Part shown: positions 8,101 through 54,614 of the stretch, piece after piece
Numbering within the stretch: the first letter of the stretch is position 1
How the letters are laid out: each line of letters begins with the position of its first letter
Program-made: the position numbers and the translations under genes
Notes under the pieces: model-generated
What the model was told of the DNA's origin: nothing
The model's database searches: none
The model's input: only the letters and a program-made list of their open reading frames with translations
NCBI RefSeq assembly: GCF_030409835.1
Contig: NZ_JAUFQO010000012.1
Coordinates: forward strand, 186,001-250,000
DNA: 64,000 nucleotides
Source: Lutimonas halocynthiae
GTDB taxonomy: Bacteria; Bacteroidota; Bacteroidia; Flavobacteriales; Flavobacteriaceae
Reading direction: 5' to 3'

Positions 8101-8466
8101 GTTTACATCTGCCATAGTAACTCCGGTAAACCATCTGTTGTCACCGGCAACATTGGCTGATTCCGTAATATCTTCAAAATTCAGATCACCTTTATTAAGG
8201 TATAATTTGTTTGGTACCATATTTCCAGAAAAATAGAGGTCAATAAGCCCATCATTGTTTATGTCCCCTGCAGAGACACCACCTCCCATATACATATAGG
8301 CGAAAGACATATAATTCAAACTATCTGTTTCTGTAAGGTCGTTTGAGAAATTGATGTTAGTCTTATTCACATCTAATAGTTGGAACAGCTTTTTTGATGG
8401 CTGATCAGATGTTTGACAAGAAATTATAAGTACTAAAAGGAAGAGATAACCAATGATATTTTTCAT
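5170..8466 (-). CDS. giant FG-GAP/VCBS repeat lipoprotein with ASPIC/UnbV domain (paralog 1)
   Basis: 1098 residues with lipoprotein signal LVLIISC (Cys17). An N-terminal propeller (about 60-485) is built from repeats of the type DINNDGLIDLY, DVNNDGLLDIY, DYDLDGDLDLYVA and DLDNDGDLEIVINN, whose DxDxDG loops probably bind calcium. The ASPIC/UnbV domain spans about 515-583 (RGFQSSVAPQLHFG, WPDG). A second FG-GAP region fills the remainder, with a helical insert near 939-965 (KKKFKDYDAFA). It lies downstream of susC-susD after a hairpin terminator, so it probably belongs to that locus as a surface glycan-handling accessory. Three paralogs lie at 23.7-33.6 kb. No enzymatic residues could be assigned. 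Confidence 0.93.
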   Translation of the reverse strand: MKNIIGYLFLLVLIISCQTSDQPSKKLFQLLDVNKTNINFSNDLTETDSLNYMSFAYMYMGGGVSAGDINNDGLIDLYFSGNMVPNKLYLNKGDLNFEDITESANVAGDNRWFTGVTMADVNNDGLLDIYCSVGGKFGTKANLLYINNGDNTFSEKAEEYGVANIGNSIQSTFFDYDLDGDLDLYVANYPPTKFNAPNDYYLFKIFNVTDEESDKLYRNDGDVFTDVTKEAGLESFGLTNSVTVGDLNNDNWPDIYISNDFNMPDYMWINNQNGTFSEHSKQLTRQTALYGMGVDIADFNNDQLLDIFQMDMTPGNNRRSKANMAGMNPDLFWGTVNAGFHFQYMQNELQMNNGNVHDSLPSFSNVARIAGVATTDWSWGPLIADLDNDGWKDLFVSNGTRREINNKDYFNNLANQKWEQTSLLEKSLAIPSEKIDNFVFKNNGDLTFDKMNQDWGLEFEGWSNGCLYADLDNDGDLEIVINNIDDKAAIFENFVSDQNNSITLRFKGPKNNTSGLGVKALLKTNELTQFQELTLTRGFQSSVAPQLHFGVGQSAAADELKITWPDGKIEILKDIESNQFLTIDYNNAVFGAGSDEIKSEKLFRTENDPSIVMKHKHVENIYDDFKDQVLLPHKTSSFGPGSSVGDLNGDGLDDVVIGGAHNNQTAIYYQTSSGFERKHFPDVDNDSDREDLGSLIFDANGDGFNDLYLVSGGSEFDYDSELLQDRLYLNDGKGNLSKSTTALPDMLISGSRVHPFDYDKDGDLDLFVGGRLVPKNYPMPTSSYILENISTNGQAKFINVTEKIAPELIDIGMVTDASWTDYDNDGWVDLMLVGEWMPVTVFRNNRGSFENITPKLNLTDSTGWWFSIEEGDFDNDGDIDFIVGNLGLNYKYQASKDEPFDIYLNDFDKNNSNDIVLSYYDEGEKFPVRGRQCSSEQIPAIKKKFKDYDAFAVATLEDVYTKNSLETSLHYEVKSFASIYLENKDGEFIQHQLPNLSQVSSINQILVKDFNNDTNLDILIAGNLYGSEVETPRNDAGVGLYLEGDGQGGFKAMAPSESGLYIPGDTKDLSFINIKEKTYILAAKNDDEVQFVEIIGGP

Positions 8467-14523: not shown

Positions 14524-15561
14524 TTGTTTTTTAATAATGTTCAAAATACTTCAGTGAAAGACAGTGTACAAGAGATAGAGCCTTACAGAGCAGAGGGGAT
14601 TGTTTATCATGCAGACACCTGTCTGCCTTTGGTTGATGCGATTTCACGCGAGAAGCTGAAATTTAAAGCTTTGGCTCGTTATACTTACCCCGGAGACAGA
14701 CTTACTGATGATACGTTAGGATTAAATTCTATTGGCTATTGGGATGCTATGGAGCCTCAGGATTGGGGTTTGAACTGGCATAGAAATGAGGGAATTGAGT
14801 TTCATTTTCTAGAATCTGGTTCAATGCCTTATGCTCAGGAAACTGAAAAAACAGAATTAAGACCAAATCACCTTACTATTACAAGACCTTGGGAAGCACA
14901 TAAGGTTGGAAGTCCTGAAATAGGGATGGGAAAGTTTTACTGGGTTATTATTGACTTAGGAATAAGAAGACCACATCAGGAATGGGTATGGCCAGACTGG
15001 ATCATGATGACAGAAAAGGATTTAAAGCGCCTGACCAAAATATTGAGGTTAGACGATCAATGGTTATGGCAGTCTAACTCCAAAATGAGAGAATGCTTTC
15101 ACAAGATGGGCATAGCAGTAGATAATGATGTTGAAGGCAGTAGTGCTTCGAAAATCAGGCTATTAGTGAATGAAATGCTAATCTTATTATTAGAATTGGC
15201 AGATTCAAAAGAAGTAGTGTTGAATGAAGCACTTACAGATAGTTCTAGAAGTGTCCAGTTGTTTTTAAACGAGTTAGATAAAAATTTATCTGAAAATTGG
15301 ACTATAGAGAGAATGGCTGATTCAGCCGGAGTTGGCCTGACAAGATTTACCTATCACTGTCGTCAATTGACCAATACAACTCCAATGAGGTATTTGGCCA
15401 TGAAGCGAATTGAAAAGGCTAAAACAATTTTGCTTAAAAACCCTGAGTTAAGTGTGGCTGAAGTAGCATATAGCTGCGGTTTTGCCACAAGTCAATATTT
15501 CTCTACAGTATTTAAAAGACAGGAAAAATGTACGCCACTCGAGTTTAAGGTGAGTTTGTAA
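14524..15561 (+). CDS. AraC-family transcriptional regulator with cupin-like sensor
   Basis: 345 residues. Residues about 70-140 resemble an AraC cupin arm (WHRNEGIEFHFLESG, LRPNHLTITRPWEAHKVG). The C-terminal 100 residues hold two helix-turn-helix units (IERMADSAGVGLTRFTYHC; VAEVAYSCGFATSQYFSTVF). No in-frame ATG precedes the conserved region: an in-frame stop lies at 14515-14517, so translation must begin at TTG 14524, at GTG 14554, or at another non-ATG codon. It is divergent from one DUF1080 gene and heads toward the isomerase/oxidoreductase/DUF1080 set, which it probably controls in response to a sugar. A 23-bp perfect hairpin begins six bases after its stop. Confidence 0.92.
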   Translation: MFFNNVQNTSVKDSVQEIEPYRAEGIVYHADTCLPLVDAISREKLKFKALARYTYPGDRLTDDTLGLNSIGYWDAMEPQDWGLNWHRNEGIEFHFLESGSMPYAQETEKTELRPNHLTITRPWEAHKVGSPEIGMGKFYWVIIDLGIRRPHQEWVWPDWIMMTEKDLKRLTKILRLDDQWLWQSNSKMRECFHKMGIAVDNDVEGSSASKIRLLVNEMLILLLELADSKEVVLNEALTDSSRSVQLFLNELDKNLSENWTIERMADSAGVGLTRFTYHCRQLTNTTPMRYLAMKRIEKAKTILLKNPELSVAEVAYSCGFATSQYFSTVFKRQEKCTPLEFKVSL

Positions 15562-15566
15562 AGCTC

Positions 15567-15618
15567 AGGTGATCGGAGGTGAGGTGATCGGAGGTGATCA
15601 CCTCACCTCCGATCACCT
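15567..15618. repeat. perfect 23-bp hairpin, modular palindrome copy H1
   Basis: Bases 15567-15589 are exactly complementary to 15596-15618 around the loop GGAGGT. Each arm has the internal layout A-B-A with A = AGGTGATC and B = GGAGGTG, so a 15-bp direct repeat lies inside an inverted repeat. The same words recur in hairpins at 53.6 kb. No T-tract follows. It may stabilise the 3' end of the AraC mRNA or be a dispersed repeat. Confidence 0.93.
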
Positions 15619-15771
15619 CGGGATGATATTACCATAAATACCTCGATTCATGTCAATTATACATAGAATAAGGTTTGTATTGTATAATTTCTTTCACTGA
15701 TTAAAAATACACAGTTGTCCGTTTTTTATCCCTTAATTTCACGAGCATAAATCACTTAAATTAAGTTAATA

Positions 15772-16773
15772 ATGAAAAAAGCGAATAATTTGTTCAAATG
15801 GTCTCATCTTTTAGTAACTGTAATGATGCTTATACTTTTAAGCTGCGGTAACAAGCAGAAAGAGGAAGTAAATGACTCCCCTAAAGAAGAAGTAAAGGAA
15901 GAAAAAGCTCCATTTTTTAAATTATCTCTGGCGCAATGGTCTCTAAATAAAGCAGTACGAGAAGGAGGACAAAGTCCATTAGATTTCGCTCAAAAAGCAA
16001 GTGAATTAGGATTTGAGGGTATCGAGTATGTTAGTCAATTGTACACGAAAGAATTAGAGAAAGATGAGGATCCTGAGGTGGCTATGGCGAATTTGTTAAA
16101 GGTTTTAAAAGAAAAAAGTGAAACATATAAAGTGACTAATGTATTGATCATGGTTGACAGGGAAGGTGATTTGGCTAACCTTGATGATAAAGAACGAGCG
16201 CAAACAATCGAAAACCATAAAAAGTGGGTTGATGCAGCGCAATTTTTAGGCTGTCATTCTATAAGAGTTAATGCACACGGAGTTGGAACATATGAAGAAG
16301 TTGCAGAGGCAGCTGTAAAAGGACTTACAGAATTATCTACTTACGCAGCAACAAAAGGAATTAATGTGATTGTTGAAAATCACGGAGGATATACTTCAAA
16401 TGGTCAATGGCTGTCGGACGTCATGGCAAAAGTGAACATGCCAAACTGTGGAACACTACCAGATTTTGGTAATTTTTGTATGACTGAAGGTTACGGATCT
16501 ATCAATAGTGTTGAATGTGAGGATCCTTATGATATATATAAAGGAGTAAAAGAATTAATGCCATACGCCAAAGCGGTAAGCGCAAAAACATATGATTTTG
16601 ATGAAAATGGAAACCAACCTAAAATTGACTACACTAAAATGATGCAGATTGTAAAAGATGCTGGTTATACTGGTTTTATTGGCGTTGAGTATGAGGGTGA
16701 TAATTTGTCAGAAGTTGACGGAATTAACGCTACAAAAGAATTGATATTAAAATCTGTAGCAGCTTTAAACTAA
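15772..16773 (+). CDS. sugar phosphate isomerase/epimerase-like TIM-barrel lipoprotein
   Basis: 333 residues with lipoprotein signal MLILLSC (Cys25), then an acidic linker (EEVNDSPKEEVKEEK). The barrel is of the xylose-isomerase-like AP-endonuclease 2 family: LAQWSLNKAV at strand 1, LGFEGIEYVSQLY (metal-ligand Glu), CHSIRVNAHG, INVIVENHGGYTSN, LPDFGNFC and FIGVEYEGD provide the expected Glu/Asp/His metal-binding set. It would act at the cell envelope on a free sugar or keto-sugar. It heads a cluster with a Gfo/Idh oxidoreductase 19 bases downstream and a DUF1080 protein, consistent with a sugar oxidation and cleavage pathway. Exact reaction unknown. Confidence 0.88.
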   Translation: MKKANNLFKWSHLLVTVMMLILLSCGNKQKEEVNDSPKEEVKEEKAPFFKLSLAQWSLNKAVREGGQSPLDFAQKASELGFEGIEYVSQLYTKELEKDEDPEVAMANLLKVLKEKSETYKVTNVLIMVDREGDLANLDDKERAQTIENHKKWVDAAQFLGCHSIRVNAHGVGTYEEVAEAAVKGLTELSTYAATKGINVIVENHGGYTSNGQWLSDVMAKVNMPNCGTLPDFGNFCMTEGYGSINSVECEDPYDIYKGVKELMPYAKAVSAKTYDFDENGNQPKIDYTKMMQIVKDAGYTGFIGVEYEGDNLSEVDGINATKELILKSVAALN

Positions 16774-23717: not shown

Positions 23718-26700
23718 TTAGTAATTTTTTAATTCGTAGACTTCCGCCTTTTCATTATTTATGGTCACAAGTAAATAAGGTTTATTCTTTAAGGTGATGA
23801 TATGTAAATGCCTGACCGATTTGCTGTGAAGGTCAAGACCAATTTGGTTTCCTAATTGCATATCACTTTCATTTTTGATCAGGGCTCCTGAAAAAGAATC
23901 AAATCTGCCATGAAAAGGCTGGACGCCAAAATAATTACCAGCAGCCAGCACTTCTTCTTTACCATCATTGTCAAAGTCATAAGAGAGAAAAGTAGTAATT
24001 GGCGACACCTGAAGCTTGTTTGAAAATGGAACAAAAGTGAATTTACCTTGGTGATTTCTAAGAAATCCTGAACGCAATTCATTCACTGTATGCACCTTGG
24101 CCTTATTTAAAATAGCCTTATCAAAAATTTGTTCTATGGATTGACCGGCAAAATCCTGATAAGAATTGTATTTTTTTCTCAGTTGCACTAATTGCGCGCT
24201 TAATTCATCAAGATTTGCTAAGGGGTAATAGGTGCCATTCTTTTCTATAGCAACAATAGTTTCTGATGTTCCATTATTATCAAAGTCATGGTAATACATT
24301 TTCATGGGGTTTTTAGAAGTTGCCTTGAACTTATTATTTGTACCCCAATTTCCAAGGAGGTAGTCTATATCCCCGTCATCGTCTATATCAAAAGGCTGAA
24401 TGCTTTGCCAAAGCCCCTCAACCGGATTATCCATTTTACTTGTTTTTTTTAGGGTTCCATTTTCGTTTTTGAAAAAGAGAGGTTGCAACCATTCACCAAC
24501 CACAATCAAATCTTTAATTCCATCTGCGTCGAAATCAGTCCAAACTGCATCGGTGATCATTCCTAAACCCTGTAATGCTGGTAAATCCTGCATTACAAAA
24601 TTTCCTTTATTATTGATTAAAATATACGAATCAGGAACAGCACCAAAGTCTTTTGACACAACGTGATTGCCAACAAATAAATCGAGATCTCCATCTTGAT
24701 CTATATCATATTGCTTAATGACCGCTGCATTACCCGTATACGCTGACAAAGTGGTTTGATGAAAGGAACTGTCATTTTGAATAAAATAGCTATCCGACAA
24801 GAAATTCGAACCTTTTGAAAAGCCTGAACCACCAGATGCAGTGATAAGGTCAGGTTTTCCGTCTCTATCAAAGTCAGCTATTAAGGCTGATACATCTTCT
24901 TTTATGGAATCATTCCTAATGGTTGGGATTTTCAGTTCGACAAAGTTAGTATCCTTTTGGATATATATTTGTGAAGGAACTCCATTAGACCCTCCAAAAA
25001 AGATATCTGAGAGCTGATCATTGTTTAAATCGCCTATTGCCGTCGCTGGTTCACGATCTGAAACCTTGTAAGGGATGAGCTTTTGTCTGTTAAAATCATT
25101 AAACGGATTTTCGATATGCTCGAATGCTATGCCTAAATTATTTTGAGAATGAGCAAATAGCAGGTTTTTCTTTGGTTGTAACTGGGCATAATCAAAGGCA
25201 ACTGCTTTGTCTGGGCCAATAACAAGATTTTGATTTGTTTTAATATTTGTCAATAGCTGACTGGTTCTGTTAGGCCATATAATGCGCAGAGAATCGATTT
25301 GACTAACATTCTCATAACCAAAATGAATAAGTGGCTCTGAGGAGGCCTGAAAGCCTCTAGCTGTGTATAATTCTTTATACTGAAGTTTGCCTTGATGATA
25401 AGACAAAACTTTTGTCCCAATCCCCTGTGTATTCGGGCTGGTATATTGGAATTTTATTTTAAGATAATTGGCTTTTTCATTAGTCTTATTGATATATAAT
25501 GAAGCAGGCTCGTCTATGTTATTGATTACGATATCCAAATCACCATCATTGTCTAAATCAGCAATGGCAGTTGCCCCAGAATACAAGGAATCCTTGACTG
25601 TCCAGTCTCCAGACATATCTTCAAAAACAATGTCTTGCCCGCCTTTGAAAATATAATTATGAGATGTACCAGATGGCATCATGTCAATGGCTTGTTGATC
25701 AACCAGCCTTGAATTATTAATTTTATTCTGAATTTGGTCATTCGATATGAACTTTATAAAATCAAGGTTGTTGGGTCTTTTTGGAATACCATTTGAAATA
25801 AACAAATCCTGTTCGCCATCCTGATTGTAATCAGCAAACATTCCGCTCCAACTCCAATCAGTTGCAGCGACACCACTCATTAAAGCTGTTTCAGCATAAG
25901 GACTATTAGCCTGATTGATTTGTAACATATTTCTGGTGAACTGGTAGTGGTAGCCGTATTGCTTGATTCTCAATTCTAGAATTTGTAAACTCTCATCACC
26001 ATCAGAAGTTTTTAAGACAGCTTCATCTTCTGGTAACATATCTAACGAAAGTATATCAGGCCATGCATCATGATTGATGTCAGCAGCATCATTTCCCATT
26101 GAGAATCTTGTAGTATGGCCAAAATAGTCTTTTAGTTTTTCTGAAAAAGTACCATCTCCATTATTCAAATAATAATAGTCATCTTCATGAAAATCATTGC
26201 TGACGTATAGATCTGGAAATCCATCCTGGTTGTAATCTGCTACGGAGACGGCCAATCCATATCCATTGACCCCTCCAAAAATGCCTGATTCTTCGCTCAC
26301 ATCAGTAAACTTTCCATTGTCATTGCGCATTAACTTATCTCCGGTCTGGTAGTTTCTTTTGTTTCTCAAGTCTGACTTACCGAACGACTCTTGTGTATGA
26401 ACTGCATGGTTAAGAATATAGATATCAAGATCATTGTCAAGATCATAATCAAGAAAGACTGCAGAAGAACTGTACGATTCAGCATCAAGACCAAATTTCG
26501 CAGCACTTTCTGTAAAGGTTAAATCTCCATTATTGATATATAATTCGTTAAACCCGTTAAACCCATTTAAGCCGACAACAGCACAAACATATATATCTAA
26601 CAAGCCATCTCCATTTACATCTCCCATAACAGCCCCTGTATTCCAGGTGCTGTTTCCAGAAATATTTGCCTGTTCACTGATATCCTCAAATTTTAAATTT

Positions 26701-26996
26701 CCTTTATTTAAGTACAAACGATTCTTAACTTGATTTCCGGAGAAAAAAATGTCAACGAGCCCATCCTGATTAATGTCTCCTAAGGCAACACCACCACCGT
26801 TATAAAAATACAGGTAATCTAATATGTTAAGATCATCAGTTTCTGTAATGGTATTGACAAAGTTAATACCAGTCTCCTTTTGGCTGGGATTACTGAATAA
26901 TGCTCCTTCTTTTTGACCACAACTGAGCATCAAAAAGGAAACGAACAAGGCGATAAGATAATTATTTTTCAAGTGTGTAAATCTTAGGTTTATCAT
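23718..26996 (-). CDS. giant FG-GAP/VCBS repeat lipoprotein with ASPIC/UnbV domain (paralog 2)
   Basis: 1092 residues with lipoprotein signal SFLMLSC (Cys26). The N-terminal motif YFYNGGGVALGDINQDGLVDI opens a calcium-loop propeller; the ASPIC/UnbV domain is near 520-590 (RGFQASSEPLIHFG, IIWPNRTSQLL) and a second FG-GAP set follows with the helical insert LRKKYNSYQDFA near 937-955. The start ATG overlaps the upstream paralog by 35 bases; TTG 26972 is a possible later start. Third gene of the minus-strand operon, with the haloperoxidase-like gene three bases downstream. Probably outer-membrane surface exposed. Biochemical activity unknown. Confidence 0.92.
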   Translation of the reverse strand: MINLRFTHLKNNYLIALFVSFLMLSCGQKEGALFSNPSQKETGINFVNTITETDDLNILDYLYFYNGGGVALGDINQDGLVDIFFSGNQVKNRLYLNKGNLKFEDISEQANISGNSTWNTGAVMGDVNGDGLLDIYVCAVVGLNGFNGFNELYINNGDLTFTESAAKFGLDAESYSSSAVFLDYDLDNDLDIYILNHAVHTQESFGKSDLRNKRNYQTGDKLMRNDNGKFTDVSEESGIFGGVNGYGLAVSVADYNQDGFPDLYVSNDFHEDDYYYLNNGDGTFSEKLKDYFGHTTRFSMGNDAADINHDAWPDILSLDMLPEDEAVLKTSDGDESLQILELRIKQYGYHYQFTRNMLQINQANSPYAETALMSGVAATDWSWSGMFADYNQDGEQDLFISNGIPKRPNNLDFIKFISNDQIQNKINNSRLVDQQAIDMMPSGTSHNYIFKGGQDIVFEDMSGDWTVKDSLYSGATAIADLDNDGDLDIVINNIDEPASLYINKTNEKANYLKIKFQYTSPNTQGIGTKVLSYHQGKLQYKELYTARGFQASSEPLIHFGYENVSQIDSLRIIWPNRTSQLLTNIKTNQNLVIGPDKAVAFDYAQLQPKKNLLFAHSQNNLGIAFEHIENPFNDFNRQKLIPYKVSDREPATAIGDLNNDQLSDIFFGGSNGVPSQIYIQKDTNFVELKIPTIRNDSIKEDVSALIADFDRDGKPDLITASGGSGFSKGSNFLSDSYFIQNDSSFHQTTLSAYTGNAAVIKQYDIDQDGDLDLFVGNHVVSKDFGAVPDSYILINNKGNFVMQDLPALQGLGMITDAVWTDFDADGIKDLIVVGEWLQPLFFKNENGTLKKTSKMDNPVEGLWQSIQPFDIDDDGDIDYLLGNWGTNNKFKATSKNPMKMYYHDFDNNGTSETIVAIEKNGTYYPLANLDELSAQLVQLRKKYNSYQDFAGQSIEQIFDKAILNKAKVHTVNELRSGFLRNHQGKFTFVPFSNKLQVSPITTFLSYDFDNDGKEEVLAAGNYFGVQPFHGRFDSFSGALIKNESDMQLGNQIGLDLHSKSVRHLHIITLKNKPYLLVTINNEKAEVYELKNY

Positions 26997-29900
26997 CGTT
27001 TATAGCGGTTATAATAAAAGTTTTTCCGTTTTTATCTTTAAACTGCGCTATGTGTTTTATTTCATTTCTTATGTAAAATCCACTCTTGTTATAGGCCTGC
27101 CATTCAAAGTCCATCGCCCCATTTCCGAGAAGTACACTGCCATAATTAGCGTCAATTCTGGAGTATTGAGGTTTAAACTCAAAATTGTTTCCCCCAAGAA
27201 TTAAATCAAGGTTGCCGTCATTGTTCAAATCAGTACATGTAATGCCACAAACACAGGAAAGCTGAACCCAATCTGGTAGTTTTTTAGTTTTGAATTCTCC
27301 ATTTCCTTCATTGATAGCAATAATCGACTCACCCATGTTGGATTGACTCATAATCGATTTTTCAAAGACTTCTTTAGGAAACAATTCATCGATACTTTTT
27401 TTCGCGTATTCAGAAGCCTTTAAGTTTTGTTTCTTTAACGAAACCAATTGGGCCGTGAGTTCTTTCTTCATGTGAATGGGGTAGTCTTTACCATTAATGT
27501 TTCTTGTAACGATTTGTTCAAAAGTACCATTGTTATCAAAATCATTCACCCATAGTTTCATAGGCTTATCCTTTTCAGCTTTGTACAAGGTATTCAGTCC
27601 TTGATTGCCAAGAATCAGATCCATGTCCCCATCATTGTCAAGATCTGCGCTTTCAACTACGTTCCACCAACCATTGAGGCTGTCAAGGGATGTAGACATA
27701 AATGATAAACGTCTGCCACTGTTTTTATATACCCGAGGACTACCCCAATCTGAGACTGTAATGAGATCCATTTTCTGATCATTATCGATGTCAGCCCAAA
27801 CGGCACCCGTAATCATACCTCCTTTTTTCAAATCGTAGGCTAATCTTTCTGTCGCATCCGAAAATGTACCATCTCCATTGTTCTCTAAAAACAGATGATT
27901 CGGGTCGAGCCCATAAACACCTACAACACTTCTCGAACCAATGAACACATCGATATCGCCATCATCATCAAAATCATGAGGACGGATAACAGAGATATTC
28001 TTGAAATTAGAAGAAATGGAATTTGTTGAAGGGCTAAATTGGCCCTTGCCATCGTTGAGATATAATCTTATTCTATAGCTTTTTTCTTCTCCAGTCTGGT
28101 TTCCACCTGACCCTATGAGCAGATCAAGATCTCCGTCACTATCAGCATCGAATAATGACGAGGCTGTATCTTCATAGAAGTCATCAGCTTCAAGTGCCTC
28201 TTGCTTACTAGGCTTCATCAGTCCATTGGCTTTATGCATATAGATTGAACCTGATTGGTTCTTGGCTCCTCCAATAAATACATCTTCATTTCCGTCTCCA
28301 TCTACATCTCCAATTGACATAGCAGGACCTTCCTGAGATAATTTTTTAGCAATAAGGCCTTCAAAATCAAAATCATTAAAATTGTTTTCCTGATGAGAAA
28401 TCAAGTTGTCGTTCGCAATCTCATTTAGTAGTTTTTTGAATTCCGCCGGTTTCGGAGCCACATATTTTTCGGTAGCTTCATTTTGATCAAGTGTCAGTAG
28501 CTGATTTGCAGCAACATTAGTGAGTTTTACTGTTAGGTCATCAGGCCAGATCACTCTGATTGAATCTAGTGTTTTGACCTCACCAAGCCCAATCGTTATG
28601 ATATAATCCATAGAGGATTGAAAACCTCTGGATGGCATCAACTCTTGAAGAATGATTGAGTTTCCATGGAATAATTTAACGCTTGTTCCGATGGCAAAAG
28701 GGTTTCCTTGTTTACCATTTAGTTTTAACTTGATATAATTATGTTTCTTTTGCTGGTCCGTATTATTCTTATACAGGAAAGCTTTCATATTGACATTATT
28801 GATCACCAGATCAAGATCTCCGTCATTATCAAGATCCCCATAAGCTGCACCATTCGAAAGACTAGGCAGGTCAAATCCCCAGTTTTTTGTTTCATTACTA
28901 AAGGTGACATCCCGGTTATTTCTGTAGGCATAATTCGGCTGGGGAGAAATAGGCATTTTTGCAATTATCGAATCGATGGCCTCTTTTTTACCGGTAAGCG
29001 CCATATTCTGCATAATGTCGTTGGCAAAGAAATCTACAAAATCCAGGTCTGTTAGGTCATGGTTTACACCATTGGTCACATAAATATCACGATAACCATC
29101 ATTATCCATATCAAACAATAAACCAGCCCAGCTCCAGTCAGTAGCTGAGACACCACTGTAATGGGCTATCTCCGAATAAGATCCGTTTCCATTATTCAGC
29201 TGCAACGTGTTTTGAATATACTGCTGATGAAAGTCTTTACTTTGTTTTAGTTTAAAGATATTATAACCTTCAAACTCCATGACCGATTTTACTCTTTGAT
29301 CTCCTTCAGGTAACATGTCAGTAATAAATATATCTGCTAAACCATCATTATTTATATCTGCCATATCCACTCCCATGGCAGAAAGACAAAGGTGCGAGGC
29401 CCAATTTTTAATGTCTTCAGTAAAAGTGCCATCCTGATTGTTGATATATAAATAGTCTCTTTCGTAAAAATCATTGGAAACATAGATGTCAGGAAAGAGG
29501 TCATTATTGACGTCGCTGATCATTACTCCTAGGCCAAAGCCAATCAAACTGCCGTATATACCTGCTTTTTCACTGACGTCAACAAAGACGCCATCTTTAT
29601 TTTCGAGGAGCATATCACCAACCCCTTTAAAAATATCTGGAACACCTTCCCAATCTTGTGCCCTAACGTCCCTTTGTTCAGCGTATCCGAGACTACTTAC
29701 AGGTATATTACTATTATTTAAAATATAAGCGTCAAGGTCGCCGTCTTTATCATAATCAAAAAAAGTGGCATGCGTGCTGAAACCAGTTTTGGCCAGGTTA
29801 TACTGACTGGCAGATTCTGTAAAGGTCAGATCACCATTGTTTATATACAAGTCGTTGTCGTGGTTATTGCCTTCCATGTTACCTGCATTACTCACATAGA

Positions 29901-30330
29901 TGTCTAAGAGTCCATCTGCGTTTATATCTACCATATTGACTCCAGTTGACCAAGGCTTATGACCGGTAATAGCTGCACTTTCAGAGATGTCTTCAAATTC
30001 AAAATTACCCTTATTTAAAAATAATTTATTGGGCCCCATATTAGCCGTCATGTAAATATCTGCCAAGCCATCATTATTGATGTCACCGATAGCTACTCCA
30101 CCACCATTATAGAAATTTCTATATTTAAAAATATTGAAGTTTTTTTGATTCACTACTTTGTTCGTAAAATCAAATCCAGATTCCTCAGGTGACATAAGAC
30201 TGAAAAGAGTGGGTGAATTTGGCTCATCATTTAATTCTTGATTCGCAGATTGCTCACAAGAAGTGAGTAGCAAAGCAACTATGAATAATAAAGAAGTGAT
30301 ATATTTCATTTTAGTGATATGATTAGTCAT
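26962..30330 (-). CDS. giant FG-GAP/VCBS repeat lipoprotein with ASPIC/UnbV domain (paralog 3)
   Basis: 1122 residues, the longest of the four paralogs. The lipoprotein signal is LLLTSC (Cys25). The first ATG overlaps the preceding stop in ATGACTAA, which suggests coupling; Met8 (30309) would give a more usual signal-peptide length. N-terminal FYNGGGVAIGDINNDGLADIY starts the propeller; ASPIC/UnbV lies near 540-610 (RGFQSSMDYIITIG, VIWPDDLTVKL); the C-terminal insert is LKKQNLKASEYAKKSI near 962-985. Second gene of the operon. Sequence identity to its neighbours is visibly partial, so the duplication is not recent. Confidence 0.92.
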   Translation of the reverse strand: MTNHITKMKYITSLLFIVALLLTSCEQSANQELNDEPNSPTLFSLMSPEESGFDFTNKVVNQKNFNIFKYRNFYNGGGVAIGDINNDGLADIYMTANMGPNKLFLNKGNFEFEDISESAAITGHKPWSTGVNMVDINADGLLDIYVSNAGNMEGNNHDNDLYINNGDLTFTESASQYNLAKTGFSTHATFFDYDKDGDLDAYILNNSNIPVSSLGYAEQRDVRAQDWEGVPDIFKGVGDMLLENKDGVFVDVSEKAGIYGSLIGFGLGVMISDVNNDLFPDIYVSNDFYERDYLYINNQDGTFTEDIKNWASHLCLSAMGVDMADINNDGLADIFITDMLPEGDQRVKSVMEFEGYNIFKLKQSKDFHQQYIQNTLQLNNGNGSYSEIAHYSGVSATDWSWAGLLFDMDNDGYRDIYVTNGVNHDLTDLDFVDFFANDIMQNMALTGKKEAIDSIIAKMPISPQPNYAYRNNRDVTFSNETKNWGFDLPSLSNGAAYGDLDNDGDLDLVINNVNMKAFLYKNNTDQQKKHNYIKLKLNGKQGNPFAIGTSVKLFHGNSIILQELMPSRGFQSSMDYIITIGLGEVKTLDSIRVIWPDDLTVKLTNVAANQLLTLDQNEATEKYVAPKPAEFKKLLNEIANDNLISHQENNFNDFDFEGLIAKKLSQEGPAMSIGDVDGDGNEDVFIGGAKNQSGSIYMHKANGLMKPSKQEALEADDFYEDTASSLFDADSDGDLDLLIGSGGNQTGEEKSYRIRLYLNDGKGQFSPSTNSISSNFKNISVIRPHDFDDDGDIDVFIGSRSVVGVYGLDPNHLFLENNGDGTFSDATERLAYDLKKGGMITGAVWADIDNDQKMDLITVSDWGSPRVYKNSGRRLSFMSTSLDSLNGWWNVVESADLDNDGDMDLILGNQGLNTLYKAEKDKPMKLWVNDFDNNGTFEQIVTRNINGKDYPIHMKKELTAQLVSLKKQNLKASEYAKKSIDELFPKEVFEKSIMSQSNMGESIIAINEGNGEFKTKKLPDWVQLSCVCGITCTDLNNDGNLDLILGGNNFEFKPQYSRIDANYGSVLLGNGAMDFEWQAYNKSGFYIRNEIKHIAQFKDKNGKTFIITAINDDKPKIYTLEK

Positions 30331-33300
30331 TTGTTTTTTTTAATTTTAAGAAAAGAGGCACAGCGTCATTTAATGTGATGATCACGTATTTTTCTTCTTT
30401 GATAACTATTTGGGCAATGTCTCTTGCTTTCCCGGGAATATCTAACTCGATATCAGCAGGGCTGGTAAAGAAACCTTTTTGGTCATTTAGCAAGACAATT
30501 CCATGGCTTGCGTCTAATCGACTCAGTTGTGTGCTGATGCCATAATCATTTCCGGCTGCTAAAACATCCATAAATCCATCATGATTAAAATCGTCCAAAT
30601 ATATTGTTTTTATAGACGATAATTGACTGTTAAACGGAAGCAGGTGTTTTTGAAACATACCATTGCCCATATTTTCAAAATAGCAACTGGATAGCTCATA
30701 AACACTTTTCAAGGTTGCATCTTTCAATATTTTTTTGTCGAATATATTTTTGAATTCAGCCTTGGCAAAATCGGTATAGGATAAAAACTTCTTATTAATT
30801 GAAGGAATTTGCTTCGAGAGGTCATCTTTAGATGAAAAGACAGTCTCTTGCCCTTGTTCAAAATAAGTAAGGATCGTTTCTTCTTTACCGTTTTGGTCAA
30901 AATCTGCGATATAGAGTTGCATTGGAGCATCAGTACTTGCCTTGAGTCTTGTATTGAGTCCCCAGTTGCCAACGATAAAATCCTGATCTCCATCCTGATC
31001 AAAATCCGCTACACGAATATGATTCCATAAGCCATTGGTTTTGTCGAGGTCATTATTCGATGTTAAATGAAGGCCTTGGCTCGAATTCATAAAAACACTG
31101 ATTGGCATCCAGTGACCTACAGCGATGATATCCGGTAGCTTATCATTATTTAGATCGACAATTTCAAGATCTTCGATTAATCCCGCTTCTGAAAAAGAGC
31201 CGGCTTTGAGCTCACTTACATCTTTGAAGTTTCCTTTTCCGTCATTAAAAAGCACATAATTTTTTGCGGAACGACCGAATTTTCTGGGCATAGCGTTTGA
31301 CCCAATGATTAAGTCAAGATCACCGTCAGCATCCATATCTGCAGTTTTGACTATAGAGGCATTGACCTCGATGACCGGGAAAGTGCTACTTATTTCAAAA
31401 ACACCTTCTATATTGATATAGAGTATTGGCCTTAATTCTTGACCTAATTGATATTCATTTCCGCCGGAAACAACAATCATATCAAGATCTCCATCATTAT
31501 CAGCATCAAAGAATGCATTGTCAGTCTCTTCTTTGTTTTTATGTTGTTCGAAAACTGGCTGATGACTGATTGTAAAAGAGGCATCTTGATTTTGCAGGTA
31601 AAGTGCACCTGCCTGCTTTTTACCGCCTCCAATGTATAGATCTTCTAATCCATCTTTGTTTATATCAGCAATTGAAATTTTAGGACCTTCAGCGCCTTTT
31701 GAATAAGGGATTAATGGCTCACGACCAAATTCATAAGAAGGCAGTTCGCTGTGCATATAATCCAGTGAAATAGGAGAGGGGCTTAGAATTATGTCACTTG
31801 AAAAACCTTTATCTGAAGTTTTAAGAGATGCCATTTTATAATCGAGCAAGAGTGTTGATCCTGCATTAATGTTTATCAGCTTCTGAGATTGACCATCTGG
31901 CCAAAACACTATTAAAGAATCAATTTTTTCTCTGGAGCCGATTCCTATGGTCATTTCAGGAGCCACAGCTGACAGATAGCCTCTTGTTGTATAGTTTTCC
32001 TGGAAGATGGATAAAGAGTCTGAAAACACCTTTATTTTTGACCCTATCCCCATGGTGTTTTTTTCGGGTCCATTAAATTTGATCTTAATAAACTGATTTA
32101 CGGAGGTTTCTGTTTTGTTTTCTAATATGAATACTTCTGAATTGACATTGTTTACCACTAAATCTTGATCTCCATCATTATCTAAATCGGCATAAATACT
32201 GCCGTTGCTAAAAGAAGGAAGCGTTTGAAACCAGTTTGAAGTATAATCTGTAAAAGTGAGATCGCCATTATTCTTAAAAAAATAATTGGATAATTTTCGT
32301 TGAGGCAGCTGCTCTGTAAATTTGAGGTCTTTTTCCTCCATGCCTTTGTTAAGCTGTTCCTGGATTTTAGTATTGGCAATAAAATTGATAAAATCCATGT
32401 CATTGGTGGCGCCGAGTATGCCATTTGATACAAACAAATCTTTATGACCGTCATTGTCTAGGTCAACAATTAAAGGAGACCATGACCAGTCTGTGGCAGC
32501 TATTCCTGAGGCAAAGGCAGTTTCCTCAAAGAATGCACCATGTTTGTTATGCAATAAGATGTTTTGCATGTATTGAGGACGATACCCGTTTTTAAGGTAT
32601 TGATCGTATACTGAATTATTGTACTCCCTTCCAGAAGTTTTATAGGCTTGAAGGTTTTCAGGAAGCATGTCTAGTGAGACAATATCAGTCCATCCGTCAT
32701 TGTCTAGATCTGCAATATCATTTCCCATTGAGAAATGACTGGTATGGCCAACATTAGTCTCGTTAGCTGAAATTATTTCTTTAAAAGTGCCGTCTTTTTG
32801 ATTGATGTACAGGTAATCATTTTCGAAAAAATCATTTCCTATGTATAGGTCTGGATAAGTATCATGGTTCAGATCACTCACGCCCAATCCTAGTCCGTAG
32901 CCAATTTTTCCTTGAAATATTCCAGATTTTTCACTCACTTCCACAAACATACCATCTTGGTTTTGAAAGAGCTTGTCGCCAGCCAGGGAATCAATAGACT
33001 TCCTTGAAGCACCTTTACCATAAGTTCTGTTTGGATTTACAGAATGGTTAAGAAGGTACATGTCAAGATCACCATCTAGATCATAATCAAAAAAGGATGC
33101 TTGTGTGGCAAAACTTTTTATATCTAAGCCGTAAACACCAGCTTGTTCTTTAAAACCTGGCATCCCCTTTTCGTCTATACCTTGGTTAACAAATAACATA
33201 TTCTGACCTGAAATAGTTTTAAACTCACCAACCTTACAAACATAGATATCTAGGAGGCCGTCGTTATTGATGTCGACGACACTCACACCTGTTGTCCAGC

Positions 33301-33589
33301 CGGTTTCGTTTTGAATCCCTGAAGCATCTGTTACATCCTGAAATTTTAAATCCCCTGAATTCAAATATAAGCGATCAGCCACCTGATTACCAGTAAAATA
33401 AAGGTCGATTAAACCATCATTATTGAAATCGGCAGAAGCCACACCGCCACCATTATAATAGTAGAGATAGGTTAAAATGTTTAGGTCCGGGTCAGGGCTT
33501 AACTGGTTGTTGAAATGAACTCCTGAATCCTTTTTTAAAATAAAAAGGGCTGGTGAATCATCTTTGCATGAAGCAGCAAAATTCAGCAA
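30323..33589 (-). CDS. giant FG-GAP/VCBS repeat lipoprotein with ASPIC/UnbV domain (paralog 4, first gene of operon)
   Basis: At least 1088 residues. From the only canonical in-frame start (TTG 33589) the lipoprotein Cys is residue 8, too short for a signal peptide. In the same frame upstream the DNA reads RKNISIFLIGIFLLNFAASC, a full lipoprotein signal, yet no ATG, GTG or TTG precedes it before the stop at 33695-33697; ATT 33616 or another near-cognate codon may be used. The Cys is followed by KDD, resembling the K-(D/E)2 surface-export signal described in Capnocytophaga. Domains: propeller from YYYNGGGVASADFNNDGLIDLY, ASPIC near 510-580 (RGYLSAVAPEMTIG, FWPDG), helical insert INKKFLSYTDFA near 926-950. 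Confidence 0.9.
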   Translation of the reverse strand: MLNFAASCKDDSPALFILKKDSGVHFNNQLSPDPDLNILTYLYYYNGGGVASADFNNDGLIDLYFTGNQVADRLYLNSGDLKFQDVTDASGIQNETGWTTGVSVVDINNDGLLDIYVCKVGEFKTISGQNMLFVNQGIDEKGMPGFKEQAGVYGLDIKSFATQASFFDYDLDGDLDMYLLNHSVNPNRTYGKGASRKSIDSLAGDKLFQNQDGMFVEVSEKSGIFQGKIGYGLGLGVSDLNHDTYPDLYIGNDFFENDYLYINQKDGTFKEIISANETNVGHTSHFSMGNDIADLDNDGWTDIVSLDMLPENLQAYKTSGREYNNSVYDQYLKNGYRPQYMQNILLHNKHGAFFEETAFASGIAATDWSWSPLIVDLDNDGHKDLFVSNGILGATNDMDFINFIANTKIQEQLNKGMEEKDLKFTEQLPQRKLSNYFFKNNGDLTFTDYTSNWFQTLPSFSNGSIYADLDNDGDQDLVVNNVNSEVFILENKTETSVNQFIKIKFNGPEKNTMGIGSKIKVFSDSLSIFQENYTTRGYLSAVAPEMTIGIGSREKIDSLIVFWPDGQSQKLININAGSTLLLDYKMASLKTSDKGFSSDIILSPSPISLDYMHSELPSYEFGREPLIPYSKGAEGPKISIADINKDGLEDLYIGGGKKQAGALYLQNQDASFTISHQPVFEQHKNKEETDNAFFDADNDGDLDMIVVSGGNEYQLGQELRPILYINIEGVFEISSTFPVIEVNASIVKTADMDADGDLDLIIGSNAMPRKFGRSAKNYVLFNDGKGNFKDVSELKAGSFSEAGLIEDLEIVDLNNDKLPDIIAVGHWMPISVFMNSSQGLHLTSNNDLDKTNGLWNHIRVADFDQDGDQDFIVGNWGLNTRLKASTDAPMQLYIADFDQNGKEETILTYFEQGQETVFSSKDDLSKQIPSINKKFLSYTDFAKAEFKNIFDKKILKDATLKSVYELSSCYFENMGNGMFQKHLLPFNSQLSSIKTIYLDDFNHDGFMDVLAAGNDYGISTQLSRLDASHGIVLLNDQKGFFTSPADIELDIPGKARDIAQIVIKEEKYVIITLNDAVPLFLKLKKTND

Positions 33590-52150: not shown

Positions 52151-52361
52151 TTGCTTCTATCTCAAGATTTTAGCTTTAATACGCATTCCTAAAAGGGCTT
52201 AACTTTCCTAATAATTGTCATAATTTTTGCAAAATGTTTTCTTAACTTTAACCATAGTTAAAAATTGATCTGAGTATTTCTTTTATAAATATCTGAAATT
52301 CAGTTTTGAAAATTTGAATTTCAAAGGATCATTATGTTCATTAATTTCTAAAATTTGTTTT

Positions 52362-53567
52362 ATGGCTCATACAAAAAAAATAAGAGGGATCATCGCTATT
52401 CTAACTGGTGGTGGTGATGTACCTGGTCTTAACCCGGCAATTCGTGCAATTACCATACGCGCAAATCGTGAAGGATTTAAAGTAATTGGTTTGCGCAGAG
52501 GTTGGGCAGGAATAACTGAATTGATTCGGGATAAAAAGGCGGATAACAGTAAAAGTTTTATGCTATTGACCAATGATATTGTAAATAAGGCAGGTAGAAC
52601 AGGAGGGACGTTTTTACATTCTTCTCGAACAAAACCAAGTAAGATGCCTAAAGCAAATGTTCCTGAGCATTTAAAGGATTCTTATAACGAGGAAGTTAAT
52701 GACCTTACCCCAGAAGTGATCAAGAATTTAGAATGGCTTGGTGTAGATTTTTTGATTCCAATTGGAGGTGATGACACTTTAAGTTATGGCGTTAGGTTAT
52801 ATAAAGAAGGTGTGAAAGTAGTTGCTATTCCAAAAACCATGGATAATGATGTGCCTGGTACTGATTATTGCATTGGTTTTAGTACCTGCGTGACAAGAAC
52901 GATTCATATGACCAATAACCTCAGAACTTCAGCCGGGTCTCACGAAAGGATACTTGTGATGGAAGTTTTCGGAAGATATGCCGGATTTACGGCCATGTTA
53001 CCTGCTATGGCGGGCGCTGCAAATCGCTGCGTAATTCCTGAACATGAATTTGACATTCCCCATTTGACAGAACTATTGGTACAGGACAGAAACAATAACC
53101 CTAGTAAGTATTCGGTGGTACTCGTTTCAGAGGGAGCCATGTTTAAAGGCGGGGAAATGATGTTTCAAAATTCAGAAAAAGACATGTTTGGTCACGCCAA
53201 ATTAGGCGGGATAGGTGATGTGGTCTCTGCCGAAATGAAAAATTTAACCGCTAGTTTTAACAAAGGAAAAACCATCAATATTATCAACCAAAAATTAGGC
53301 TATTTGGTTCGCGGTGGCGATCCGGATGCGGTTGACTCTATTGTACCCATGGCTTTTGGTAACCTGGCTCTGGATCTTATCCTGGGAGGATTCCATGGTA
53401 GATTGGTCGTATTGAAAAACGGAAGGTACGACGATGTACCTCTGGATGTCGTTACCAATTCCAAAAAAATCGTCAATGTGGAGAAATATTATAATATTGA
53501 AAGACTAAGACCTCATTATAACCGCTTCGAGATGAAACCAATGTTCCTTATGGCTGCTGATAGTTAA
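52362..53567 (+). CDS. second phosphofructokinase with PPi-type active site
   Basis: 401 residues from ATG 52362 (an upstream in-frame start at 52314 lacks support). The fold is PFK: LTGGGDVPGLNPAIRA at the N-terminus. Two discriminating positions differ from ATP enzymes: GGDDT (Asp138 where E. coli PFK has Gly104) and PKTMDND (Lys158 where E. coli has Gly124; catalytic Asp161). Asp plus Lys at these sites is the known pattern of pyrophosphate-dependent PFKs, so this is probably a reversible PPi enzyme despite a frequent ATP-PFK label for relatives. It has its own promoter region (263 bases after gapA) and a 27-bp hairpin six bases after its stop. Confidence 0.92.
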   Translation: MAHTKKIRGIIAILTGGGDVPGLNPAIRAITIRANREGFKVIGLRRGWAGITELIRDKKADNSKSFMLLTNDIVNKAGRTGGTFLHSSRTKPSKMPKANVPEHLKDSYNEEVNDLTPEVIKNLEWLGVDFLIPIGGDDTLSYGVRLYKEGVKVVAIPKTMDNDVPGTDYCIGFSTCVTRTIHMTNNLRTSAGSHERILVMEVFGRYAGFTAMLPAMAGAANRCVIPEHEFDIPHLTELLVQDRNNNPSKYSVVLVSEGAMFKGGEMMFQNSEKDMFGHAKLGGIGDVVSAEMKNLTASFNKGKTINIINQKLGYLVRGGDPDAVDSIVPMAFGNLALDLILGGFHGRLVVLKNGRYDDVPLDVVTNSKKIVNVEKYYNIERLRPHYNRFEMKPMFLMAADS

Positions 53568-53573
53568 TTGATC

Positions 53574-53633
53574 TCTGATCACCTCAGTTCCGATCACCTC
53601 GGAGGTGAGGTGATCGGAACTGAGGTGATCAGA
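53574..53633. repeat. perfect 27-bp hairpin, modular palindrome copy H2
   Basis: Bases 53574-53600 are exactly complementary to 53607-53633 around the loop GGAGGT, the same loop as copy H1. Reading the right arm outward gives A-B-A with A = AGGTGATC (identical to H1) and B = GGAACTG. It begins six bases after the PFK stop. Confidence 0.93.
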
Positions 53634-53641
53634 TGATAGCC

Positions 53642-53693
53642 AAGGGTTCGGAGGTGAAGGGTTCACTTGCGAACCCTTCACCTCCGAACCCTT
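53642..53693. repeat. perfect 23-bp hairpin, modular palindrome copy H3
   Basis: Bases 53642-53664 are exactly complementary to 53671-53693 around ACTTGC. The arm is A-B-A with A = AAGGGTTC and B = GGAGGTG (identical to the B of H1). It lies eight bases from H2, and 63 bases before the HMG-CoA-lyase start. Confidence 0.93.
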
Positions 53694-53743
53694 CGCAAAT
53701 TAAAATTAAGGAAGCTTGGGAACTGCTATTGGTCATTATTATC

Positions 53744-53756: not shown

Positions 53757-54614
53757 ATGAGTCGAATCAAAATTATTGAATGCCCGCGAGATGCCATGCA
53801 AGGCATTAAAAGCCATTTTATCCCTACTGCGGATAAGGTCAGGTATATCAATGCCTTGTTAAAAGTAGGATTTGACACCATTGATTTTGGAAGTTTTGTA
53901 TCGCCAAAGGCCATTCCGCAGATGCGGGATACAGCTGAAGTATTGTCGATGCTTGATCTTGACAATACAGATTCAAAACTACTTGCTATTGTTGCCAATG
54001 TGAGAGGTGCAAATGATGCTTGTCAATTTGATCAAATAGATTATTTAGGCTACCCTTTTTCTATTTCGGAAAACTTTCAAATGAGAAATACGGGTAAAAC
54101 CATTGCGCAATCATTAGTTACTTTAGAGGGAATCATGAAGCTTGCCAATACGCACAAAAAAGAAGTAGTGGCTTATTTATCGATGGGCTTTGGAAATCCT
54201 TATGGTGACCCTTGGAATATTGATATCGTTGGAGAGTGGACTGCTACTTTGGCTAATCTTGGGATTAAAATCTTGTCTTTATCAGATACAATTGGGGTGG
54301 CCGATGGAAAAACAATCAGTTACTTGTTTGAAAACCTGATACCCATGTATCCAGAAATTGAATTTGGAGCACATATGCATACAAATCCTGAAGGCTGGCA
54401 TGAGAAGGTAAGTGCTGCATTCGATGCAGGGTGTAATAGATTTGATGGTGCTATCAAAGGCTTTGGCGGATGTCCTATGGCTAAGGATGAACTGACGGGG
54501 AATATGCCTACAGAAAAATTACTATCTTTTTTTACGGCTAGAAAAGAGAATTCAGGAATCAATCCATTGCGGTTTGAAACTGCTTATAATGAAGCTATGA
54601 AAGTATTTGGTTGA
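53757..54614 (+). CDS. hydroxymethylglutaryl-CoA lyase family protein
   Basis: 285 residues from ATG 53757; an upstream frame extension runs through the H3 hairpin and is not credible. The HMGL-like TIM barrel begins IKIIECPRDAMQGIKSHF (metal/catalytic Arg-Asp), with FDTIDFGSFVSPKAIPQM, LSLSDTIGVADG, FGAHMHTNPEGW (His metal ligands) and the Cys loop GFGGCPMAKDELTGNMPTE. It cleaves HMG-CoA to acetoacetate and acetyl-CoA in leucine degradation. Neighbours are glycolytic, so operon membership is doubtful. It converges on the glucokinase gene with an eight-base gap. Confidence 0.93.
   Translation: MSRIKIIECPRDAMQGIKSHFIPTADKVRYINALLKVGFDTIDFGSFVSPKAIPQMRDTAEVLSMLDLDNTDSKLLAIVANVRGANDACQFDQIDYLGYPFSISENFQMRNTGKTIAQSLVTLEGIMKLANTHKKEVVAYLSMGFGNPYGDPWNIDIVGEWTATLANLGIKILSLSDTIGVADGKTISYLFENLIPMYPEIEFGAHMHTNPEGWHEKVSAAFDAGCNRFDGAIKGFGGCPMAKDELTGNMPTEKLLSFFTARKENSGINPLRFETAYNEAMKVFG

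Follow-up and report, generated by a model that had tools for sequence, protein, structure and literature searches.

The STRR heptanucleotide repeats of heterocystous cyanobacteria are a known case of short words whose complementary copies can pair into growing hairpins, as in a tRNA-Leu intron. Arrays of TAACTGA and of other heptamers have been described in Beggiatoaceae, in Cyanobacteria and in five Bacteroidetes, including Gramella forsetii and Aequorivita sublithincola (PMC4679880); according to the available text of that paper, they are short in period, intergenic and patchy over species, mix related words, and occupy matching places in two closely related strains, differing there by whole units gained or lost. 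The genome studied in most detail has 169 direct sets and one indirect, the period is 7, most sets lie before start codons, and the available text gives no predicted RNA structure (PMC4679880). The heptanucleotide elements of Geobacter metallireducens are likewise presented, in the accessible sections of their report, as dispersed multicopy intergenic sequences made of tandem heptamers, with 49 copies of one kind (PMC2700814). REPs, as outlined in the part of PMC3733652 at hand, are extragenic and palindromic, stand after genes or between convergent genes, and carry an unpaired GTAG or CGTC tag at one end. Template switching overwrites sequence with its reverse complement, makes or mends perfect stems and produces multibase paired changes, which the excerpted text of PMC8794818 reports for the stems of RNA genes. 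Clusters of hairpins without U-tracts have also been proposed as terminators (PMC8355165, in the portion available).

The window, that is, the whole stretch of 64,000 nucleotides of Lutimonas halocynthiae DNA analyzed here, holds three hairpins in two intergenic gaps, H1 in one and H2 and H3 side by side in the other. The features referred to below are:

14524..15561, + strand: gene of an AraC-type regulator (PF12833), ending just before H1
15567..15621, no strand assigned: H1, sister array, (GGTGA)(GGAGGT+)(GGTGA)(GGAGGT+)(TCACC)(GGAGGT-)(TCACC); perfect 23-bp palindrome
15772..16773, + strand: gene of an AP_endonuc_2 TIM-barrel protein (PF01261), downstream of H1
52314..53567, + strand: phosphofructokinase gene (PF00365, E 4.6e-67), ending 6 bases before H2
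53574..53633, no strand assigned: H2 array, (GGAACT-)(TCACC)(GGAGGT+)(GGTGA)(GGAACT+)(GGTGA); perfect 27-bp palindrome, loop GGAGGT
53642..53693, no strand assigned: H3 array, AGGGT dialect, (AGGGT)(GGAGGT+)(AGGGT)(GCAAGT-)(ACCCT)(GGAGGT-)(ACCCT); perfect 23-bp palindrome, loop ACTTGC
53757..54614, + strand: HMGL-like gene (PF00682, E 3.4e-15), downstream of H3

The hairpins and their words are exactly as the original prediction gave them. All positions pair in the arms of H2 (53574-53600 with 53607-53633, 27/27), of H3 (53642-53664 with 53671-53693, 23/23) and of H1 (15567-15589 with 15596-15618, 23/23, loop GGAGGT). H1 starts 5 bases past the upstream stop codon, and 8 bases separate H2 from H3. 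Folded as RNA, the H2/H3 region (53568-53710) reached -107.5 kcal/mol; 200 dinucleotide shuffles averaged -39.7 (sd 4.1), which puts the real sequence at z -16.5. The phosphofructokinase ORF was taken from its first start codon, and the true start may be further in; the start of the HMGL-like gene is a chosen ATG, an alternative, longer TTG start falling inside H3. Elsewhere, the window encodes four large FG-GAP / ASPIC-UnbV proteins of ~1100 residues (5170-8466 and 23718-33589), three of which form a tandem run.

The H2/H3 stretch, used as a BLAST query against the same genome (G000; 3.99 Mb, 20 contigs), returned 110 pieces, which we grouped by hand into 34 array places. The repeat unit is 15 nt long and consists of a 10-nt box, TC-GSARST-GA, and a 5-nt word, each in either orientation. 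The central 6-mer of the box is GSARST or its reverse complement; all eight forms occur, GGAGGT and GGAAGT being the commonest, and the 5-nt word is mostly GGTGA or AGGGT, again in both orientations. Since TC and GA are mutual reverse complements, a word can flip while its joints stay intact. A pattern of two boxes in any orientation had 65 matches in G000, versus none for a reversed control pattern, and 6 in the window, versus 0.01 expected. At least two boxes were required for a chain to count as an array, and one locus of genome G006 (L166) was aligned but not tokenised. Seven G000 loci were read in mirrored orientation, which affects their coordinates and strand signs and leaves their words, stems and gap classes as given; the loci L174, L176, L177 and L181 were left out of the comparisons.

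H1, H2 and H3 are arrays in this grammar that read alike on both strands; the arrays L018, L019, L025 and L108 are purely head-to-tail and form no such hairpin. The A-B-A palindrome originally proposed as the unit is thus replaced by the 15-nt box and spacer, which also builds purely direct arrays. The wider proposal of a modular, dispersed intergenic family with an inventory of words agrees with the 34 places and 65 pattern matches, and this dispersal also means that the three hairpins are not isolated copies. The concerted replacement of both arms that went with the proposal fits some sites (26/26 pairs against 22, and 21/21 against 18, see below) and fails in general, many arrays having no palindrome. 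A coding repeat (15 nt being five codons) was rejected by reading, since in the frame tried the most frequent words contain stop codons, and since words are found in either orientation. The sequence GGAGGTGATC resembles what we take to be the complement of the 3' end of 16S rRNA; the sense of the boxes in co-directional gaps (30 versus 22) gives no clear support for that likeness.

We searched for the two-box pattern in 22 genomes of the genus and found 65 sites in G000, 22 in G020, 6 in G015, 3 in G006, 1 in G007 and none in the other 17; the reversed control matched once, in G002. The single G007 match, one of the three in G006 and the G020 locus L159 were judged to be chance, leaving arrays in four of the 22 genomes (G000, G020, G015 and G006), of which G000 is 99.9% complete and the other three 79-90%. 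Among 397 genomes of the family, eight had a two-box match (65 in G000 and one each in seven others) and eight had one match to the reversed control, so the seven single matches are at chance level. A collection of 84,980 species, from which our own genome was perhaps left out, yielded 72 stretches with the direct two-box pattern. Seven of these show the grammar by eye (L061, L067, L089, L090, L097, L102 and L108, from Flavobacteriaceae and Eudoraea records), and the other 65 look by eye like exact tandem copies or chance pairs, as do five viral contigs. An array is also present in CAJQNH, a MAG record under the name Eudoraea.

The vocabulary differs in part between genomes. AGGGT is a dialect word of G000, filling 21 of 100 inner spacers there and none of the 25 in G020 (p 0.007). 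It is one of ten words compared, of which GGAGCT tends to be commoner in G020 (p 0.024) and the remaining eight show no difference. Other word repeats were seen at or near the array sites. At L035:1250-1290 (G000 C12:22449-22489) another perfect hairpin stands beside the array, with CACTTAAGTG words, GGGG spacers, 19-bp arms and a 3-base loop; a similar word, TTCACTTAAGTGAA, lies beside the L034 array of G020, and the two perhaps belong to another dialect. AT-rich arrays of 8-nt words (GATGTAAT, AATGA...) are present in G020:C115 (L173, upstream of the match) and in the left flank of L164 in G015, and share a gap with a G015 array. In G006, the site of a G000 array (L166, ~1900-2110) contains an AT-richer array with free spacers, its boxes resembling TCGGAAGTAA and TCTGAAGTAA; this could be a dialect that is older or has decayed. 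The genus seems to hold several intergenic word-repeat vocabularies. The right flanks of the direct arrays L012 and L015 (G000 C8) show a GGATTACCTCCC...GGTCGGTGATCCT motif together with CTTTGAAAGCAAGCTTTCAA-like palindromes; these recur in G020 (C79, C82) and look like a separate dispersed repeat.

The arrays resemble the heptamer arrays of PMC4679880, as far as the available text of that paper goes, in being intergenic, short in period and patchy over species, in mixing related words, and in having copies that differ by a whole unit (a single case here, C15/C8, described below). One box variant, GGAACTGA, is similar to the TAACTGA described in the seen part of that paper, and the L013 gap of G020 holds a direct run of short words. 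Unlike the heptamers as that text presents them, our arrays have a period of 15 (10+5), use both orientations, form long perfect palindromes and lie mostly after genes. The direct heptamer pattern RAGTGAR x3 had no match in G000 and is present in 2 of the 22 genus genomes; a pure heptamer direct array of this kind was accordingly discarded as the parent form. STRR repeats share with the arrays the short words that pair into hairpins, and are set apart by their description, with other words, another phylum and a heptamer period. The Geobacter metallireducens elements, unlike the 15-nt arrays, also occur inside genes, with four direct copies and other words (PMC2700814, in its accessible sections).

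We found no catalogued counterpart of the repeat in the databases searched. The window had no Rfam match at gathering score, low-threshold matches on H2/H3 being mostly microRNA hairpin models, all below cut-offs, and a known RNA family was therefore rejected as the identity of the element. Phage and plasmid records gave no match to the array sequence at E 1e-5, and an origin from those records was likewise rejected. Among the matches listed from open-licence literature on intergenic repeats of Bacteroidetes/Flavobacteriia, REP/RAYT and heptamers, none describes a 15-nt family by title or in the text available, and among the matches listed for papers containing short stretches of the array words, the titles are on other subjects.

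The placement of the arrays is not that of average gaps. Thirty-two arrays have a called gene on both sides, and these lie in 14 convergent, 16 co-directional and 2 divergent gaps, compared with 5, 33 and 4 among the window's own 42 gaps (the H2/H3 gap was set by hand to co-directional, the ORF caller's longer TTG start overlapping the array having made it convergent). The convergent excess (14/32 versus 5/42) has p 0.003, or p 0.035 against window gaps of at least 60 nt (3/22), and divergent gaps are not significantly avoided (2/32 versus 4/42, p 0.69). In 30 of the 32 cases the array is downstream of at least one gene, and many arrays start less than 20 bases from a stop codon; as to placement, this is what the RNA 3' element offered as one option in the original prediction would look like. 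Array loci are also clustered, with 8 neighbour pairs closer than 10 kb versus 2.7 expected, a number reached in 10 of 5000 uniform placements.

Another option in that prediction was a mobile REP-like family targeted by a RAYT protein. A REP/BIME-like element moved by RAYT or another Y1 transposase would suit arrays that are extragenic, partly palindromic and dispersed, with units in both orientations and a position downstream of genes (30/32), given that REPs are palindromic, dispersed and extragenic and follow genes or separate convergent ones in the part of PMC3733652 seen. However, Y1_Tnp/RAYT (PF01797) had no match in the array-bearing genomes G000, G020, G015 and G006, the last three being 79-90% complete, and of the 22 genus genomes the eight with a Y1 match all lack the two-box pattern. 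No GTAG or CGTC tag was found within 10 bases on each side of the 15 hairpins of at least 15 bp (H1 is outside this set). Array sites are, moreover, common to species, and at the one G015-only place comparable on both flanks (L163) no inserted copy with a target site was seen; a clean insertion was rejected there, the G000 and G020 gaps differing as a whole and holding a terminator-like hairpin. In contrast to REP/BIME as described in the available text (PMC3733652), our arrays thus have no tag, no RAYT that we could find and no fixed palindrome, and their unit is a 15-nt word array. We consider transposase-driven movement very improbable, and the RAYT proposal was dropped.

A stronger rival is suggested by the gene-end position: the arrays could terminate transcription or stabilise mRNA 3' ends, in which case selection would act on them as RNA hairpins that replace ordinary U-tract terminators at the ends of genes. 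The excess in convergent gaps points in this direction (14/32 versus 5/42, p 0.003), as may a simple terminator scan of the array-bearing gaps, in which 11 of the 14 convergent ones were without an ordinary terminator. A scan for a hairpin followed by a U-tract gave no match in the gaps of H1, H2 and H3. At one convergent site, G015 has the array hairpin only, where G000 and G020 carry a hairpin flanked by T-runs, an ordinary bidirectional terminator. At the phosphofructokinase site, the arrays of G000 and G020 have as their counterparts, read by eye, terminator-like hairpins followed by T-runs in G001, G021, G008 and G002; G007 has almost no gap. Hairpin clusters that lack U-tracts are, in the portion of PMC8355165 at hand, proposed to terminate transcription. 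On the other side, a palindrome occurs in both members of 1 orthologous pair out of 16, and the hairpin-less direct arrays L018, L019 and L025 stand in the same kind of place. A terminator-like hairpin with a T-run lies in the same gap as the array and separate from it in 8 of 34 cases (overlapping it in 2 of 34), the same was seen by eye for several G020 arrays, and the lack of a significant avoidance of divergent gaps (p 0.69) does not help this explanation either. Selection as terminators or stabilisers is, in our opinion, unlikely as the main explanation of the arrays, although it deserves to be taken seriously.

To what extent sites are shared can be seen from two sets of loci. Of the loci fetched, and therefore selected, by the box pattern, 9 of 10 from G020, 2 of 2 from G006 and 0 of 5 from G015 stand where G000 also has an array; the G020 sample consisted of 10 of its 22 sites and of 9 gaps chosen by gene flanks. 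For the latter, sequence inside the genes beside 14 G000 arrays was sought in G020; nine gaps were readable, with the flanks close together, and 5 of the 14 were not assessable. Six of these nine flank-chosen sites hold a 15-nt box chain in G020 too (2 to 7 boxes), with different words. The G020 gap at L013, where G000 has a 15-nt array, is a run of TCTCACTTC-like short words, that at L018 has a few degenerate GGTGA-like words, and that at L006 has no array and an ordinary hairpin.

In three gap-free pairs, picked by eye among loci found by the box pattern, the changes amounted to 11/33 in slots, 13/70 in spacers, 1/77 in fixed box letters and 69/426 in aligned flanks, from which 108 gap columns were left out. 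When boxes were taken in if at least 7 of 10 letters fit, fixed letters departed from consensus at 24 of 189 positions in the six flank-found G020 arrays and at 15 of 217 in the same six loci of G000. The figure of 1/77 is therefore mostly ascertainment, the loci having been found by the box pattern itself.

These counts also bear on the possibility that the arrays are bound by a sequence-specific protein of the nucleoid, of chromosome domains or of RNA, its putative recognition site being the TC...GA box. The persistence of arrays as arrays at 6 of 9 flank-chosen sites, the clustering of loci (8 neighbour pairs under 10 kb versus 2.7) and the fixed letters kept in pattern-selected pairs (1/77 changed) would all be expected of such sites, but the departures in flank-selected G020 arrays (24/189) would not. 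The boxes, moreover, take either orientation and eight core variants over ~34 places, no candidate protein is at hand, and 18 of the 22 genus genomes have no array-like site. We regard a binding-site array as improbable.

Several comparisons give an idea of how individual arrays change. The contig-end arrays of C15 and C8 (the start of L041 and the end of L033) differ by a single base and by one whole 15-nt unit and are otherwise the same; the resemblance of their flanks stops at the last words of the array. The sequence directly before both is presumably the 3' end of 5S rRNA with the terminator of two rRNA operons; Rfam gave no match for this putative 5S fragment. In G020, two arrays 750 bp apart are alike, including ~12 bases of flank, and differ in their outer flanks and in the first box and spacer. 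At one site shared by G006 and G000, the left half differs at 5 of 28 positions and the right half at 1 of 28; in G006, the left arm matches the reverse complement of the right arm exactly (26/26 paired versus 22/26 in G000). This bias is as one inverted copying event would leave it, at a single site and with the change unpolarised. At another site, the G020 arms pair at 21/21 positions over a 27-base loop, versus 18/21 in G000.

Palindromy itself is seldom conserved between species. With a stem of at least 15 bp and a loop of up to 20, the 16 orthologous G000/G020 pairs (sets of 10 and 6) include 1 in which both arrays are palindromic (L034, with differing arms), 7 in which one is, and 8 in which neither is; were longer loops allowed, L031/L089 would join as shared. 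The original statement that both arms changed together in every copy accordingly describes H1, H2 and H3 well and is no rule for the family, orthologous pairs seldom sharing palindromy. We also compared mean stem length with shuffles of each array's own modules. The 36 G000 arrays average 11.8 versus 9.8 (highest of 200 shuffles, 11.3), with no excess in 10 G020 arrays (8.7 versus 9.5) or in 5 G015 arrays (9.2 versus 9.1), and the small vocabulary alone gives stems near 10. Arm concert is thus partly an effect of the small vocabulary and partly a real excess of palindromes in G000, where they may be favoured. Fifteen hairpins of at least 15 bp have 2 mismatches in 306 paired positions, the finder favouring clean arms.

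The arrays therefore have one grammar, are dispersed, and stand at shared sites with differing words; one pair differs by a whole unit, two neighbours are alike, and at some sites one species alone has the hairpin. We think it probable, with considerable room for doubt, that H2 and H3 are lineage-restricted 15-nt arrays at gene 3' ends which decay and are rebuilt through slippage, through copying over short distances and through inverted template switching. Arrays would gain and lose whole 15-nt units by replication slippage, would swap words with neighbouring or sister arrays by what may be short conversion, and would also drift by ordinary mutation; the direction of each such change is likewise conjectural. 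Now and then the polymerase would briefly switch template inside an array, overwriting a stretch with its own reverse complement. Inverted overwriting makes a perfect hairpin in one move, so that both arms would seem to change together. Compared with the hairpins of RNA genes in the available text of PMC8794818, a word array could switch at many points along its length. The arrays would gather at gene 3' ends, often in convergent gaps, where they are tolerated, and palindromic ones without an ordinary terminator nearby might serve as transcript ends, a candidate role. Hairpins such as H2 and H3 are then most likely passing states of array renewal and candidate terminators. Two observations sit less well with renewal by copying and slippage: the fixed letters kept at all but 1 of 77 positions, unlike a drifting array, although this is mostly ascertainment, and the longer-than-shuffle stems of G000, where palindromes may be favoured.

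More tentatively, and with more doubt than belief, the arrays may be seen as a self-renewing genomic "sentence", in which reversible TC/GA joints let template switching invert or replace words without loss of the 15-nt frame and without a transposase, and which is possibly used as interchangeable gene ends. The results suggest that a REP-like landscape can arise without RAYT. RNA and genome evolution still lacks a settled account of how long perfect hairpins originate and how their arms come to match; here, related species have one vocabulary in common at many sites, palindromic or not, and sequencing a few strains could give a direct measure of how fast and how far inverted copying acts. If true, the genomic "sentence" would preserve, at dozens of places in each genome, a natural record of mutation by template switching.
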